From: Candidatus Gastranaerophilales bacterium
GTDB lineage: Bacteria > Cyanobacteriota > Vampirovibrionia > Gastranaerophilales > Gastranaerophilaceae
DNA: 64,000 nucleotides
Assembly: GCA_944326545.1 (NCBI GenBank)
Contig: CALVEH010000004.1
Span: 186,001-250,000 of the forward strand
Reading direction: 5' to 3'
Shown: positions 16,123-61,910 of the stretch, piece by piece
Position numbering within the stretch: position 1 is the first letter of the stretch
How the letters are laid out: the number at the start of each line of letters is the position of its first letter
Notes under the pieces: generated by a model
The model's input: the letters and a program-made list of their open reading frames with translations, nothing else
Told to the model about the DNA's origin: nothing
Databases searched by the model: none
Translations under genes and position numbers: made by a program

Positions 16123-16129
16123 ATTTTTC

Positions 16130-16495
16130 ATAAGGTTTCAATATCTCGGCGAACTATGATAATTGAACAGCTAATCCATATATGACAAGTCCATTCGTGT
16201 TTTTTTATAAGGTTTCAATATCTTGGCGGACTATGATAATTAAACACCTCAATTATTAACATCAAGTCCATCTACGATTGTTTAGGGGCACAGCCCCTTC
16301 CGCTACTGAATGCTTGTATTAAAAGTATTTTTATAAGGTTTCAATATCTCGGCGAACTATGATAATTAAACACCTCAATTATTAACATCAAGTCCATCTA
16401 CGATTGTTTAGGGGCACAGCCCCTTCCGCTACTGAATGCTTGTATTAAAAGTATTTTTATAAGGTTTCAATATCTTGGCGGACTATGGCAAATCC
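16130..16495 (+). repeat. Family B tandem structured repeats (array B1)
   Basis: Four units start at 16130, 16207, 16333 and 16459. Lengths are 77, 126 and 126, with the last cut after ~37 bases where family C begins. Units open with ATAAGGTTTCAATATC and carry GGACT/AGTCC-type pairing arms; the 126-base units add AGGGGC-ACA-GCCCCT (16284-16298). The two long units are almost identical to each other. The array lies between converging genes. Confidence 0.9.
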
Positions 16496-16499
16496 CCTT

Positions 16500-16663
16500 C
16501 GTCATTCTGAGGGAACGTAGTGACCGAAGAATCGCAAGGACAATTGCATTACACAAATTCGTCATTCTGAGGGAGTGCAACGACCGAAGAATCTCACAAT
16601 CTTTGTCTATCACTCCAAACTTGTGAGATGTTTCGTCTTCGACTCAACATGACGAGGTCGTTA
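16500..16663 (+). repeat. Family C 'GTCATTCTGAGGGA' repeat
   Basis: Two copies of a CGTCATTCTGAGGGA...CCGAAGAATC unit followed by a CTCAACATGACG end that can pair with the CGTCATtcTGAG start. Similar 'GTCATTCTGAG...GAAGAATC' repeats are scattered in many unrelated bacterial genomes. It directly abuts a truncated family B unit and the 3' end of glgA. Confidence 0.8.
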
Positions 16664-16665
16664 TT

Positions 16666-18120
16666 TTACATCTCTATGCCGCAAGCTTCCTTATAAGCGT
16701 CAACATATTTTTGTGCGCTTTTGTCCCAACTGAAATCCGCATTCATTGCATTTTGAACAATTTGCGCCCAATCTTTTTTGTCTTTATAAATATCAAGAGC
16801 ATATCTTATACAATCCATCATAGAATATGGACAATAATTCCAGAACTTGAATCCGTCACCATTATCCATAGGATATCCTATGATAGTATCATCCAAACCA
16901 CCTGTAGCTCTAACTATAGGCGCAGTTCCATATTTTAATGCAATAAGCTGGCTCAGTCCGCAAGGTTCAAAAGCAGATGGCATCAAAAACATATCAGCTC
17001 CTGCATACATAAGGTTGCTTAACTGTGCACTAAACTCAATTTTTGCTCTTATATTAGAGCTTGTTTCACTCAAATAACGGAACATATCTTCGTAATGTTG
17101 TGCACCGGTGCCAAGGATTATAAACTGAGCATCAAGCTCTTTCATACTTTCACAAACAGGGCCGATTAATTCAAAGCCTTTTTGTTCAACAAGCCTTGAA
17201 ACTATTGCAATAAGCGGTTTATCTTTTACATAAGGCAAACCAAACTGCTCTAATACAGCTTTTTTATTTTCTTCCTTGTATTCGACGTGTTTTGCATCGT
17301 AATTTTTTGCTATAAATTTATCTGTTTGAGGGTTATAAACGCTATAATCAACACCGTTTAATATGCCCAAAAGTTTGTGTGCATTTTGATTCAAAGTCCA
17401 ATCAAGACCGTGACCGCCTTCAAAAGTTTTAATTTCATTTGCATAGTTTGGAGAAACTACAATTATTTTATCACTGTAATTAATGGCACCCTTCATCCAG
17501 TTGAGCATTCCAAAGTGTTCCAATCCCCAACAATTCCAAACATACTTGTGATCAAGCTGTGCAAAATAAAGTAAATCATCAAACCATTGACCTTGATATG
17601 CAATATTGTGGATGGAAAAGAAATTTTTAGTATCTTTAAAGAACGGGTCATCCTTATAATTAACTTTCATATAAACAGGAATCATCGCAGTATGCCAGTC
17701 GTTTGAATGTATAACGTCAGGTTTAAAATTCAAAAGTCTTGCATATTCTATAGATGCGTGTGAAAAAGCAATAAACCTTTCATGTTCGTATCTCGTATCT
17801 ATGTTTCTTGGATAAATTTCTTGAAACGGAGCAAAATATTTGCTGTTATCCAAAAAGAAAACATTAATATTTGTATCCGGCAACTTTGTCATCTTAAGGT
17901 TGAAATAATACTGACCATAGCTGTAATCTATTGTAAGTTTAGAATTGGGAACATCTACAATATTGTATTTAGCTTGATCAATACAGCCATGCAAAGGTGT
18001 AAAGATAGCTACTTCGTGTCCCATTTTTTCCAAAACCTTAGGCAAACTGCCCACAACATCAGCAAGACCTCCCACTTTTGAAAATGGTGCAACCTCAGCT
18101 GATACAAACATTATTTTCAT
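16666..18120 (-). CDS. glgA: Glycogen (starch) synthase
   Basis: GlgA adds glucose from ADP-glucose to the growing alpha-1,4-glucan. It is a GT-B enzyme of the GT5 family and has normal length (484). Diagnostic parts are the N-terminal substrate loop KVGGLADVVGSLP, HSNDWHTAMIP, the nucleotide-binding SRLVEQKGFELI and the C-terminal PSAFEPCGLSQLIALKYG. Start codon is the ATG before KIMFVSAEVAPFSK. No other glycogen genes are adjacent; the gene is transcribed alone and is flanked downstream by repeat families C and B. Glycogen storage is consistent with the glucokinase and sugar transporter found later in the window. Confidence 0.96.
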   Translation of the reverse strand: MKIMFVSAEVAPFSKVGGLADVVGSLPKVLEKMGHEVAIFTPLHGCIDQAKYNIVDVPNSKLTIDYSYGQYYFNLKMTKLPDTNINVFFLDNSKYFAPFQEIYPRNIDTRYEHERFIAFSHASIEYARLLNFKPDVIHSNDWHTAMIPVYMKVNYKDDPFFKDTKNFFSIHNIAYQGQWFDDLLYFAQLDHKYVWNCWGLEHFGMLNWMKGAINYSDKIIVVSPNYANEIKTFEGGHGLDWTLNQNAHKLLGILNGVDYSVYNPQTDKFIAKNYDAKHVEYKEENKKAVLEQFGLPYVKDKPLIAIVSRLVEQKGFELIGPVCESMKELDAQFIILGTGAQHYEDMFRYLSETSSNIRAKIEFSAQLSNLMYAGADMFLMPSAFEPCGLSQLIALKYGTAPIVRATGGLDDTIIGYPMDNGDGFKFWNYCPYSMMDCIRYALDIYKDKKDWAQIVQNAMNADFSWDKSAQKYVDAYKEACGIEM

Positions 18121-44577: not shown

Positions 44578-45582
44578 GTGCAGAGTTTTATTATTGTTTT
44601 ATTGCTGATAATTTGTGTAGCCCTGATTGTTTGGCTTGTTTCCTTGTATTTTAAGTATCAGGAGCTTAAAAAAACTTTCAGAAATCATAAAAAAATCTTA
44701 AGAAGCGTTACTCGAACAATCAACTCTGTGCGCTACGGGAATTTGTATGAACGTGTTCCGGACGAGACTTCTTCTGTTTTACCTAATCTCTCTCAAAGCG
44801 TAAACTCTATGATTGAAGCGATTGTTGATAGAGAAGGTATGATAAAAGAATACCAAAGCGAGTTGAATAAAAAAATCAATGTTTTAACAGAAGTAGAAGA
44901 ACTCAAAGAAGATTTTGTTGCAACGCTTACGCATGATTTAAAAGTTCCGATTCTTGCCGAAAAAAATATGCTGGCATTTCTTTTAGACAATCGTTTTGGA
45001 GAACTTAACGACAGACAAAAAGAAGCCTTAGGATATTTACAAAGTTCAAACAAAGAGCTTGTTGAGCTTGTGGAAATTATTTTAGAAACATACAAACTTA
45101 ACGAAACAAAAATAGAACTCCACAAAGAAGAAAAAGACGTAAACAGTATGATTGAAGAAATCATTGAGCAAATGCGTCCGATTGCAGATACTGATTCTAT
45201 TACGATTAATTACTGGACTGAGTTCTACAATAGAGTTTCAATAGACGAGTTTTACATAAAAAGAGCGTTAAAAAACCTTATCCTAAACGCTATCTCTTTT
45301 AGCGAGCCAAGCTCAAAAATAGATGTCGCGCTATGCAATGATGACAAAAATATCTATATAAAAATCACAAACTACGGAAAAAGCATAAAACGAGAAGAAA
45401 TAGCTCACGTTTTTGATAAATACTACACTACTGCTAAAAAATTCCGTAAAGTAGGTACAGGGCTTGGGCTATACCTGTCAAACCGAATTGTTAAAGCTCA
45501 TAATGGGGAAATTATCATAGAAACTGATTCATACAATATCCCTTACACAACGTTTATGATTAAACTACCTATTTTTTTATAG
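44578..45582 (+). CDS. Sensor histidine kinase with one membrane helix
   Basis: The 334-residue kinase has a single N-terminal transmembrane helix (about 2-22), a HAMP-like and coiled region, the phosphoacceptor motif LTHDLKVPI near 120 and a HATPase domain with N box (LKNLILNAISFS) and G boxes (VGTGLGLYLS). No sensor domain outside the membrane, so it would sense a membrane or cytosolic signal. The start is GTG at 44578. No response regulator is adjacent. The stop codon TAG lies inside the first bases of the family B unit that follows (ATAGGG). Confidence 0.9.
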   Translation: MQSFIIVLLLIICVALIVWLVSLYFKYQELKKTFRNHKKILRSVTRTINSVRYGNLYERVPDETSSVLPNLSQSVNSMIEAIVDREGMIKEYQSELNKKINVLTEVEELKEDFVATLTHDLKVPILAEKNMLAFLLDNRFGELNDRQKEALGYLQSSNKELVELVEIILETYKLNETKIELHKEEKDVNSMIEEIIEQMRPIADTDSITINYWTEFYNRVSIDEFYIKRALKNLILNAISFSEPSSKIDVALCNDDKNIYIKITNYGKSIKREEIAHVFDKYYTTAKKFRKVGTGLGLYLSNRIVKAHNGEIIIETDSYNIPYTTFMIKLPIFL

Positions 45583-46195
45583 GGTTTCAATATTTTGGCG
45601 AGCTATGATAATTGAACACTTCAATTGTTGACGACAAGTTCATTCTCAACTGCTTAGGGCCGCAGGCCTTCCCACTACTAAATACATCATTTATAATTTT
45701 TATAAGGCTTCCTTATCTTGGTGAACTATGATAATTGAACATTTCAATTGTTGACTACAAGTTCATTCTCAATGTTTAGGGCCGCAGGCCTTCCCACTAC
45801 TGAATACATCATTTATAATTTTTATAAGGCTTCCTTATCTTGGCGGACTATGATAATTAAATACTTCAATTGTTGACGACAAGTTCACATTTTTTTGTTT
45901 CATAAGGCTTCAATATCTTGGCGAGCTATGATAATTGAACACTTCAATTGTTGACGACAAGTTCATTCTCAACTGCTTAGAGCCGCAGGCTTTCCCACTA
46001 CTAAATACATCATTTATAATTTTTATAAGGCTTCCATATCTTGGTGAACTATGAAAATTTCACAGCTCAATTATTGACGACAAGTCCACATTTTTTTGTT
46101 TCATAAGGCTTCCTTATCTTGGCGGACTATGATAATTAAATACTTCAATTATTGACAACAAGTCCACTTGGAGTTGTTTAGGGTGCTTTTTCATC
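45579..46195 (+). repeat. Family B tandem structured repeats (array B2, six units)
   Basis: Unit starts: 45579, 45702, 45824, 45902, 46025 and 46103, with lengths 123, 122, 78, 123, 78 and ~93. Long units carry AGGGCC-GCA-GGCCTT (45656-45670) or the compensated AGAGCC-GCA-GGCTTT (45979-45993); short ones end before that hairpin. Arms GAACT, GAGCT or GGACT pair with AGTTC or AGTCC about 35 bases later. The array lies between converging genes and holds no gene. Confidence 0.92.
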
Positions 46196-49456: not shown

Positions 49457-49490
49457 CAAAACCCCTAAATCTTTTGGTTTAGGGGTTTTA
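49457..49490 (+). terminator. Intrinsic terminator of the transporter gene
   Basis: AAAACCCCTAAA pairs with TTTAGGGGTTTT around TCTTTTGG; the first family B unit starts at its last base. Confidence 0.88.
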
Positions 49491-49669
49491 TATGGCTTCA
49501 ATATCTTGGCGGACTATGATAATTAAACACTAACTCATATATGACAAGTTCAATCTTGATTGTTTTATATGGCTTCAATATCTCGGCGGACTATGCCAAT
49601 TTGACACCTAATCTGTGGGCGACAAGTCCACTCACAACTGTTTAGGGGCACAGCCCCTTCCACTAAGGA
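49490..49669 (+). repeat. Family B repeats (array B3, two units)
   Basis: Units start at 49490 (77 bases, short type) and 49567. The second has AGGGGC-ACA-GCCCCT and is then cut after ~102 bases where family C starts. Arms GGACT with AGTTC (wobble) and GGACT with AGTCC. Confidence 0.88.
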
Positions 49670-49878
49670 CGTCATTCTGAGGGAGTGTAACGACCGAAGA
49701 ATCGCAATGATTATTGCATTACACAAAACTGTCATTCTGAGGGAGTGCAACGTACCCTCACGGGTATCCTGATATGTACGGCTCGTAAACTCGCCTACAT
49801 CTCAAGCAAGAATCTCACAATTTTAAAAGTATCACGCCAAGCCTGTGCGATGTTTCGGCAAAGCCTCAACATGACGAG
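49670..49878 (+). repeat. Family C repeat with internal insertion
   Basis: Two GTCATTCTGAGGGAGTG units and a closing CTCAACATGACG. In the second unit the word GCAACG|...|AAGAATC, contiguous in the 16500 copy apart from ACCG, is split by ~57 bases (about 49754-49810) that include TACCC-TCAC-GGGTA. Confidence 0.7.
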
Positions 49879-49888
49879 TTTATTTTTT

Positions 49889-53837: not shown

Positions 53838-54953
53838 ATGGCAGACGAAAAAACGGAAGAGGCGACCCCCAAGCGGCGGGAAGACGAGCGAAAAAAAGGG
53901 AATATTGCACGCAGTCAGGATATGACTGCAGCTTTGACCATGACAACGGGCGTTGGTCTGCTTTTTGTTATGTCTCCGATGATAATGGAGAAACTGAAAA
54001 ACCTTCTTTATTATACGCTTACGCACCTTGACCCCAAAAGTATAGAGACTGATGACATTATTGCTTTGTTTGCACCTTATGCAAAAATTACGGGCGAAAT
54101 GCTTTTGCCGTTTTTGTTGGGGCTTGCTGTGGTAACTGCCTTGATTATGAGAATACAGGTAGGGGCTTTGTTTGCTACGGAAAAAATAAAGCCTAAAATG
54201 GATAAATTTCAGCCTTCAAATATTGTTCAGGCCTTAAAAAGGATGTTTAACCCTTTTGAGCCTAAAAATATGATTGAAATATCAAAATCGTTTTTGAAAG
54301 TTGCAATAGTCGGTTATTGCGGTTTTTCTACTGTTATGGGCAGAAAAGACGAGTTACTCGGGCTTTTGGGGGTTGATATCCCGACAGCTTTTGCTGTTTT
54401 ATCGAGTATTTTAACTCAGATGATTTTAAATATTATCGTTGCGATGTTGATTATTGGGTTTATTGATAAAAAATATTCTGATTACGAATATAATAAATCT
54501 ATAAAAATGACTAAACAGGAGATAAAAGACGAATGGAAAAACATGGAAGGGGATCCTGTTATCAAGTCAAAACTCAAGTCTGCACAAATGCAGTTTATGA
54601 AACAAAAAATGCTCACAGCTGTACCTAATGCAGATGTTGTTGTTGCAAATCCTACTCATTTTTCTGTAGCGTTAAAGTATGACAAATCTATTGCGCCTGC
54701 ACCTGTTGTTGTTGCAAAAGGTGTTGATTATATGGCATTTAAAATTAGAGAAATTGCTAAAGCTAACGATGTTCCTATTGTAGAAAACAAACCGCTTGCG
54801 CGTTCTTTGTACAAACTTGTTAAAGTAGATGAAGTTATCCCGGCTGATTTGTATGTAGCAGTAGCAGAGATTCTTGCATTTGTTTACGGAAAAGACGGTG
54901 CCGCAGGGGCAAAACGTATTAAAAACCCAGACCTAAACCCTAATAGAAGATAA
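53838..54953 (+). CDS. flhB: Flagellar export switch protein FlhB, paralogue 2
   Basis: A 371-residue protein with the classical FlhB start EKTEEATPKRREDERKKG, four transmembrane helices and the cytosolic domain with NPTH at 271-274, which self-cleaves to switch export from rod/hook to filament proteins. The position after fliR makes this the standard flagellar FlhB. A related copy lies 11 kb away before fliA. Right after the stop begins a half unit of repeat B and element E2. Confidence 0.95.
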   Translation: MADEKTEEATPKRREDERKKGNIARSQDMTAALTMTTGVGLLFVMSPMIMEKLKNLLYYTLTHLDPKSIETDDIIALFAPYAKITGEMLLPFLLGLAVVTALIMRIQVGALFATEKIKPKMDKFQPSNIVQALKRMFNPFEPKNMIEISKSFLKVAIVGYCGFSTVMGRKDELLGLLGVDIPTAFAVLSSILTQMILNIIVAMLIIGFIDKKYSDYEYNKSIKMTKQEIKDEWKNMEGDPVIKSKLKSAQMQFMKQKMLTAVPNADVVVANPTHFSVALKYDKSIAPAPVVVAKGVDYMAFKIREIAKANDVPIVENKPLARSLYKLVKVDEVIPADLYVAVAEILAFVYGKDGAAGAKRIKNPDLNPNRR

Positions 54954-54954
54954 T

Positions 54955-54987
54955 TTGTCATAGTTTGTCAAGATATAGAAGCCTTAT
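54955..54987 (-). repeat. Family B half unit left of E2
   Basis: Read on the minus strand: ATAAGGCTTCTATATCTTG then ACAAACTATGAC, the first ~32 bases of a B unit. A similar half unit lies at 55209-55238 on the other side of E2, cut at nearly the same point. Confidence 0.7.
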
Positions 54988-55003
54988 AGAAAAATATTTT
55001 TGT

Positions 55004-55207
55004 ATGTTCATTTTTTCTTTTTGTTGCGACGCAAAAAGAAAAAACGAACCAAAAAAGAAAAACACGCTATATCAAAACAGACTCTAAAATATTTATCTTC
55101 AAAATTTTCTAACCGCTACGCTTAACAAAAATTTTGTGCGTAAATACAAAGAGTCTGTAATCAAAACTACAACGGCATAGCCGTACTACTGCTTACGCAG
55201 TTTTTTA
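55004..55207 (+). repeat. Family E element (copy E2), uninterrupted
   Basis: Reference copy without an A insertion. In order: 18-bp A/T-rich hairpin (55007-55051 region), nested CAGACTC/GAGTCTG hairpin with inner AAAATTTTC-type arms (to 55162), ACGGC-ATA-GCCGT and ACTGC-TTAC-GCAGT. 55004-55162 matches 22080-21922 with five differences. Confidence 0.8.
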
Positions 55208-55208
55208 A

Positions 55209-55586
55209 TGATAGTTAGCCAAAATATAGAAGCCTTATAAAAAACAAATACAAATGGAATTGTCGTCTACAGATTAGGTGTCTAATTGTCATAGCTTGCC
55301 AAGCTATTGAAACCATATGAAAAAAACATCAAGTAGTGGAAGGGGCTGTGCCCCTAAACAGTTGTGAGAGGACTTGTTGTCTACAGATTAGGTGTCTAAT
55401 TGTCATAGTCTGCCAAGATATTGAAACCTTATAACAAATACAAGTGGACTTGTCATATATGAGTTAGGTGTTTAGTTATCATAGTCTGCCGAGATATTGA
55501 AGCCTTATAAAACAATCAAGATTGGACTTGTTATATATGAGTTAGGTGTTTAATTATTATAGTCCACCAAGATATAGAAACCTTAT
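55209..55586 (-). repeat. Family B tandem structured repeats (array B4)
   Basis: Minus orientation. Units begin (at ATAAGG or ATATGG) at 55586, 55508, 55432, 55318 and 55238; lengths 78, 76, 114, 80 and a ~30-base half unit. The 114-base unit has AGGGGC-ACA-GCCCCT. One unit has a perfect ATAGCTT-GGC-AAGCTAT hairpin where most units have a broken one. Confidence 0.9.
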
Positions 55587-55662
55587 AAAATACTTAATTG
55601 CTTTTTAGAGCTGTGTTTTATAATATAAATTTGTTACTTTAAGCTTGTATAAAGGAGCGAAT

Positions 55663-61334: not shown

Positions 61335-61910
61335 ATAAGGTTTCTATACCTTGGCAGACTATGACAATTTGACACCTGAATCAATGACAACAAGTCCACT
61401 TGTATTTGTATAGCGGCACAGCCGTTTTCACTACTTGGTGCATTCAGGCTACTTTATTTTTGTAAGGTTTCTATACCTTGGCAGACTGTGACAATTTGAC
61501 ACCTGAATCAATGACAACAAGTCCACTTGTATTTGTATAGCGGCACAGCCGTTTTCACTACTTGGTGCATTCAGGCTACTTTATTTTTATAAGGTTTCTA
61601 TACCTTGGCAGACTATGACAATTTGACACCTAATCTGTAGACGACAAGTCCACTCACAACTGTTTAGGGGCACAGCCCCTTCCACTACTTGATGTTTTTT
61701 TCATATGGTTTCAATAGCTTGGCAAGCTATGACAATTTGACACCTGAATCAATGACAACAAGTCCACTTGTATTTGTATAGCGGCACAGCCGTTTTCACT
61801 ACTTGGTGCATTCAGGCTACTTTATTTTTATAAGGTTTCTATACCTCGGCAGGCTGTGACAATTAAATACCTATTTTATTAACAACAAGTCTGTTCGCTT
61901 AAGTTGCTGT
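61335..61910 (+). repeat. Family B tandem structured repeats (array B5, five units)
   Basis: Unit starts 61335, 61462, 61589, 61703 and 61830; lengths 127, 127, 114, 127 and ~81. Units 1, 2 and 4 have AGCGGC-ACA-GCCGTT (61412-61426 in the first); unit 3 has AGGGGC-ACA-GCCCCT. Unit 4 has a perfect ATAGCTT-GGC-AAGCTAT (61714-61730). Unit 5 pairs AGGCT with AGTCT where others pair GGACT with AGTCC. Confidence 0.92.

Follow-up and report, generated by a model that had tools for sequence, protein, structure and literature searches.

The window analysed here, a stretch of 64 kb from an uncultured gut bacterium of the Gastranaerophilales, a group related to cyanobacteria, holds rows of repeats between its genes and raises the question of whether the small hairpins in these repeats are folds kept by selection, and of what kind of element carries them. 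The repeats, called family B below, are modular, non-coding direct repeats arranged head to tail, and all the arrays studied are intergenic. Every unit opens with a core, TTTTATAAGGYTTCAATATCTTGGCGRACTAT, of some 32 nt; with a tail of about 45 nt behind it (e.g., GACAATTAGACACCTAATCTGTAGACGACAAGTCCATTGGTATTTG) it makes the short unit, which measures 75-83 nt in most cases. The long units, which are mostly of 112-127 nt, additionally carry GTTTA, a hairpin and a short 3' stretch (TTCCACTACTTGATG...). The hairpin, a GC stem of 5-6 bp with a 3-nt loop, is present in most long copies; many units (the short ones) lack the module, and the hairpin is therefore not needed for array growth. Arrays often finish with one extra core, and many have a core at both start and end. 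The window contains five arrays, four on the + strand and one on the - strand (Table 1). Ten hairpins could be located in full, and of these one is on the minus strand. The four hairpins on which the original prediction was built were found with exactly the letters given, at 16284, 45656, 45979 and 61412. In the array at 45575, the stop codon (TAG) of a histidine kinase gene falls within the first core.

Table 1. Family B arrays and their hairpins in the window (S, short unit; L, long unit).
Feature	Positions	Strand
Array: short unit, two long units, terminal core; start inside T tract of intrinsic terminator	16126..16494	+
Hairpin AGGGGC-ACA-GCCCCT	16284..16298	+
Hairpin AGGGGC-ACA-GCCCCT	16410..16424	+
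Array of the original prediction: L, L, S, L, S, last unit with eroded hairpin	45575..46180	+
Hairpin AGGGCC-GCA-GGCCTT	45656..45670	+
Hairpin AGGGCC-GCA-GGCCTT	45778..45792	+
Hairpin AGAGCC-GCA-GGCTTT	45979..45993	+
Array: short and long unit; begins right behind intrinsic terminator	49486..49667	+
Hairpin AGGGGC-ACA-GCCCCT	49644..49658	+
Array between flhB and MscS-like gene; family A element between two cores	54941..55590	-
Hairpin AGGGGC-ACA-GCCCCT	55341..55355	-
Array: four long units and eroded fifth; first base directly behind stop codon	61331..61930	+
Hairpin AGCGGC-ACA-GCCGTT	61412..61426	+
Hairpin AGCGGC-ACA-GCCGTT	61539..61553	+
Hairpin AGGGGC-ACA-GCCCCT	61666..61680	+
Hairpin AGCGGC-ACA-GCCGTT	61780..61794	+

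Other small elements accompany the arrays. Two further repeats occur between family B cores, namely family A (about 270 nt) and family C (about 106 nt). Family A is found in many members of the genus (54992-55210 of the window, minus strand; L010:1550-1785; and similar), frequently has a family B core on each side in this genome, and carries the hairpin AT-GGC-TTT-GCC-AT or AC-GGC-TWT-GCC-GT together with a long A/T-rich hairpin. Family C (GGCGGATTTTGG...GAACTGCCAATAATCCAAGAT) is apparently inserted in the loop of the family B hairpin at L178, L182 and L183 (genomes G011 and G021), which suggests that the hairpin serves a further small element as a landing site. An inverted-repeat element (CGTCATTCTGAGGGAG...CTCAACATGACG) stands repeatedly behind the last family B unit, at 16500-16666 and 49670-49888 of the window and at many array ends.

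For the covariation analysis, units were aligned by sequence only, a tree was built, and every column pair (5,151) was scored by a G-test with average-product correction, in an R-scape-like test written for this analysis whose null kept the tree and its substitutions but placed them at random columns. The sets, from six genomes, comprised 62 full-length units and 77 hairpin-bearing units including divergent relatives. In 32 long units from this genome, pair three of the hairpin was G-C in 27, C-G in four and A-T in one, and pair five was G-C in 20 and C-G in 12, with no broken cell at either position; in the blind scan these two variable pairs took ranks 1 and 2 of all column pairs. Their E values were 0.02 and 0.07 in the full-length set and 0.00 and 0.05 in the hairpin-bearing set. 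Both ranks were kept after copies within 5% or 10% of each other were collapsed and when this genome was taken alone, with E rising from 0.014 to 0.5 as the dataset became smaller. The family B hairpin is real, because its two arms change together, and the concerted change that had been read by eye at the third and fifth pairs is borne out. The tree requires about 2-3 and 2-4 both-sided changes for the two pairs, and the independent events are therefore few. Covarying base pairs, by which structured RNAs are recognised, are thus present as two pairs of one hairpin. On the tree, the outermost pair turned from G-C into G-T in seven changes and into A-C in none (+ strand). A G-T pair is a tolerated wobble only where the + strand, in the orientation of the array, folds, and the drift therefore fits folding of that strand; inner wobbles are so few that they contribute little to the strand question.

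It had also been claimed that a second arm pair, GGACT/AGTCC, changes in concert, and this did not hold: its two innermost pairs are invariant, its outer two pairs are unpaired in 15/31 and 17/31 sequences, and no pair of it ranked better than 495th in the blind scan. The second stem was accordingly rejected, having no covariation and failing in its outer pairs in about half of the copies, so that the covariation sought for both stems was obtained for the hairpin only. A single large RNA fold per unit was likewise rejected (z from -1.96 to +0.3, about like shuffles), as was the hairpin as an intrinsic terminator, a T run being absent 3' of it on either strand by direct reading. The statement that no named family has this layout agrees with Rfam, which gave no match in the window at the gathering cut-off and, at a relaxed threshold, merely chance miRNA matches within family A.

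These observations bear on the possibility that family B is an RNA element, whose units are transcribed and whose hairpin acts in the RNA, e.g., as a site of processing, stabilisation or protein binding in 3' UTRs. The covariation and the tolerance of G-T on the + strand would suit such a role, as would the arrays that stand right behind stop codons in the sense direction. However, whole units fold roughly as shuffled sequence does, no Rfam family matches, the hairpin has no terminator-like T run behind it, and the arrays take mixed orientations to their neighbour genes, divergent ones included (in this genome, 8 convergent, 5 ++, 6 -- and 5 divergent contexts). Arrays are therefore not tied regularly to any one type of transcript, and we regard the RNA element as rather unlikely.

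The original prediction went further and held that the fold itself must be selected. The compensatory change in the hairpin speaks for this; the strict implication does not follow, since template switching can also pair the arms. Selection on the fold is likely rather than proven, because such switching during DNA replication could yield the same paired changes. A documented effect of template switching is that paired arms are created and kept (PMC8794818; mechanism also PMC7202029), and a purely mutational origin would have it make or mend the arms between short inverted repeats while recombination among copies spreads the result, with no selection involved. Family B copies do swap modules, and in family A, which is unrelated to family B, the two forms of the hairpin given above also differ by paired change. 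On the other hand, the loop is not inverted between hairpin variants, outer G-T pairs persist although repair from a template should remove them, and mismatched or eroded hairpins exist, albeit rarely among intact units. A mutational artefact is an unlikely account, but one to be taken seriously.

Copies were counted with two covariance models, R1 built on the long unit and R2 on short relatives. R1 gave 76 matches in this genome (G000) and 78 in G017, a sister species in the same genus; most orthologous stretches of the two are 92-98% identical. Four further species had 1-4 R1 matches each; R2 raised these to 2-8 and added one weak match in a fifth species. Family B was not found in 16 other sampled members of the genus, nor in the 40 other genera sampled (383 genomes of the family, 41 genera); the large model searches ran stricter filters, and weak relatives could therefore be missed. 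A search for the core pattern across 84,980 genomes matched only Gastranaerophilales MAGs or further MAG contigs, plus one clpB-like gene. The latter, in a contig labelled Clostridia (L066), was dismissed as chance, as it reads by eye as ClpB-like coding sequence. Family B is thus confined to one genus of Gastranaerophilales. No match was obtained in the viral contigs, phages or plasmids searched, and a viral search with the flhB protein was also empty; a phage or plasmid origin was therefore rejected.

The places at which arrays begin have a common character. In this genome the 8 bases left of the array have a mean T fraction of 0.54, against 0.35 in intergenic DNA (p<2e-5), and at 49 distinct sites in all genomes the fraction is 0.58; the T-rich DNA lies on the left side of the arrays, in one fixed orientation. 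Five arrays (16126, 49486, L013, L016 and L098) stand behind terminator-like hairpins, as do arrays in G009, G011 and G021, and others start at the first base past a stop codon. At 45582, L014 and L073 the stop codon is supplied by the first TATAA/TATAG of the array itself. If the gene to the left is transcribed divergently, its A-rich leader and ribosome-binding site form the opposite strand of the T tract.

Comparison of the sister species adds a view of change over time. At one near-empty site a long unit and a terminal core present in G017 are missing from G000. AAAAAAT flanks the site to the left and right; the empty form is two bases (CA) off, and a deletion in G000 is therefore possible. 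At orthologous occupied sites the number of units, their type and the cargo differ, so that multi-copy intergenic modules vary in number between sister species in the manner of BOX and STAR repeats. Several synteny breaks between the two coincide with arrays, in draft assemblies in which chimeric joins at repeats are possible. A single divergent unit of 78 nt occupies the same place in both sisters (L158, G000:C2:245715-245791; L095:2142-2219) between flanks that are 96% identical, and some solitary copies are therefore old and stable. Paralogues with a common C-terminus, outer-membrane-protein-like by eye, have arrays directly past their stop codons (L015, L018, L020, L022, L072 and L079), and these genes with their arrays look shuffled between the two genomes.

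A mobilising enzyme was sought in several classes, REP/RAYT being tried first, as GTAG...hairpin can be read on the minus strand in many units. On this reading family B would be REP/BIME elements moved by a RAYT (Y1) transposase, and a Y1 gene is present in each of the four species in which R1 found few, divergent copies, a pattern that may reflect shared ancestry. However, the genomes richest in copies, G000 and G017, gave no Y1 transposase (PF01797) in a profile search. RAYT-like Y1 genes, most encoding 176-185 aa, occur at L147-L156 in G002, G004, G009, G011, G013, G014, G020 and G021, and where flanks were available those of nine Y1 genes in these eight relatives were read. Most lie beside a different REP, GTAG-GTTGGGGT-TTCT-ACCCCAAC and variants; the gene at L153 is flanked by GTAGGGTGCAATTTATTGCACC, and no family B unit stands in the flanks read. 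The GTAG itself is not conserved, as CTAC, its complement 3' of the hairpin in most G000 units, is replaced by CACTAAT or CACAAAT in relatives; it also sits several nt from the stem, so that no GT(A/G)G head adjoins the hairpin. REP/RAYT membership was therefore rejected, and we hold mobilisation by a RAYT to be extremely improbable.

The cores themselves suggest another arrangement, a cassette array in which the 32-nt core would be a site for site-specific recombination and the tails, hairpin modules and families A and C would be its cargos. Consistent with this, many arrays have a core at both ends, four or more unrelated cargos are found between cores, with junctions that resemble one another, and some cores are near-perfect dyads (ATAGCTT-GGC-AAGCTAT). 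However, the cargos are without genes, copies of family A may be duplicates of one composite, and the cores differ among themselves (63-100% identity to one reference copy). An integron integrase (TIGR02249) gave matches only far below the cut-off, as it did in every control genome; attC boxes are absent, and GTTTAGG does not match the GTTRRRY box. Integron cassettes were rejected for want of an integrase over the cut-off, and a cassette array in general appears highly unlikely. Group II introns, of which class IIC targets terminators, were also rejected, no reverse transcriptase exceeding the cut-off in six genomes. A reverse-transcriptase ORF of 370 aa (L195, G000:C7:4854-5543), akin to those of group II introns, fell below it.

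Considering all these results, the best explanation, to which we give about an even chance, is that family B is a non-autonomous mobile repeat of one genus, MITE-, BOX- or STAR-like, whose hairpin is used as single-stranded nucleic acid. Since a Y1 transposase, an integron integrase and a group II reverse transcriptase were not found, the repeat would depend on a putative enzyme acting in trans. Copies may enter at exposed T-rich sites, namely terminator tracts, gene ends and, on the opposite strand, A-rich leaders. The enzyme would recognise the hairpin in single-stranded form, most probably as ssDNA of the + strand. Arrays could then grow, shrink and lose hairpin modules via slippage or recombination between cores, and the effect on the host is probably incidental. 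The burst in one lineage, the T-rich left flanks, the mixed orientation, the near-empty site, the differing orthologous arrays, the covariation and the G-T drift all argue for a mobile repeat; against it stand the lack of a transposase tied to the family, the single near-empty site, the many units without a hairpin and the modest significance of the covariation on reduced data. A bolder version would make family B a novel class of T-tract-seeking mobile DNA, moving either single-stranded by way of its small covarying hairpin or as cassettes between 32-nt cores, with an enzyme outside the REP, MITE and integron systems; we think this decidedly unlikely.

Family B is a structured intergenic repeat in a recent burst, the two sister species having about 77 copies each and five relatives at most 8. 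Strain comparisons can therefore address how it spreads, as well as selection versus template switching. Breaks in assemblies and rearrangements in this gut lineage may also be due to it, because many contigs of relatives end in family B arrays.

The literature on repeats in Melainabacteria or Gastranaerophilales, covered in part, yielded no description of family B, which is undescribed as far as we searched; the general type to which it belongs, that of small modular repeats between genes (such as BOX, STAR and REP/BIME), is known. Like family B, MITEs are short, non-coding, intergenic, multi-copy and restricted to lineages, but no terminal inverted repeats were seen by eye in arrays or single copies (left end ATARGG, right end CACTAATC), and target duplication is unproven, with one possible case (AAAAAAT). 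REP/BIME elements with RAYT (PMC2817692) share the intergenic position, the many copies and a small GC hairpin whose pairing is kept while its sequence changes, whereas family B lacks a cognate RAYT and a conserved GTAG head, runs in direct rather than alternating orientation and has a long conserved core. BOX elements of Streptococcus pneumoniae (PMC3049150) are also modular and intergenic (boxA-boxB(n)-boxC) with a variable number of middle modules, form predicted RNA stem-loops and are thought to be non-autonomous mobile elements; their main structure comes from the end modules, in contrast to the one small local hairpin per long unit, the arrays of whole units and the frequent terminal core of family B. 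STAR of Staphylococcus (PMC3532100) resembles family B in its intergenic direct repeats with a conserved, short GC-rich motif and spacers of about 40 nt, in loci that expand and contract, and in copy numbers that are few or many by species. It belongs to another phylum and has a 14-nt motif, T(G/A/T)TGTTG(G/T)GGCCC(C/A), in place of a core of about 32 nt, and, as far as the accessible part of that source goes, no reported covarying hairpin. Family B thus shares with STAR and BOX that it is modular, intergenic, direct, variable in number and restricted to a lineage, and differs from both in its long core, the cores at both ends of many of its arrays, its oriented docking at T tracts and its covarying hairpin.
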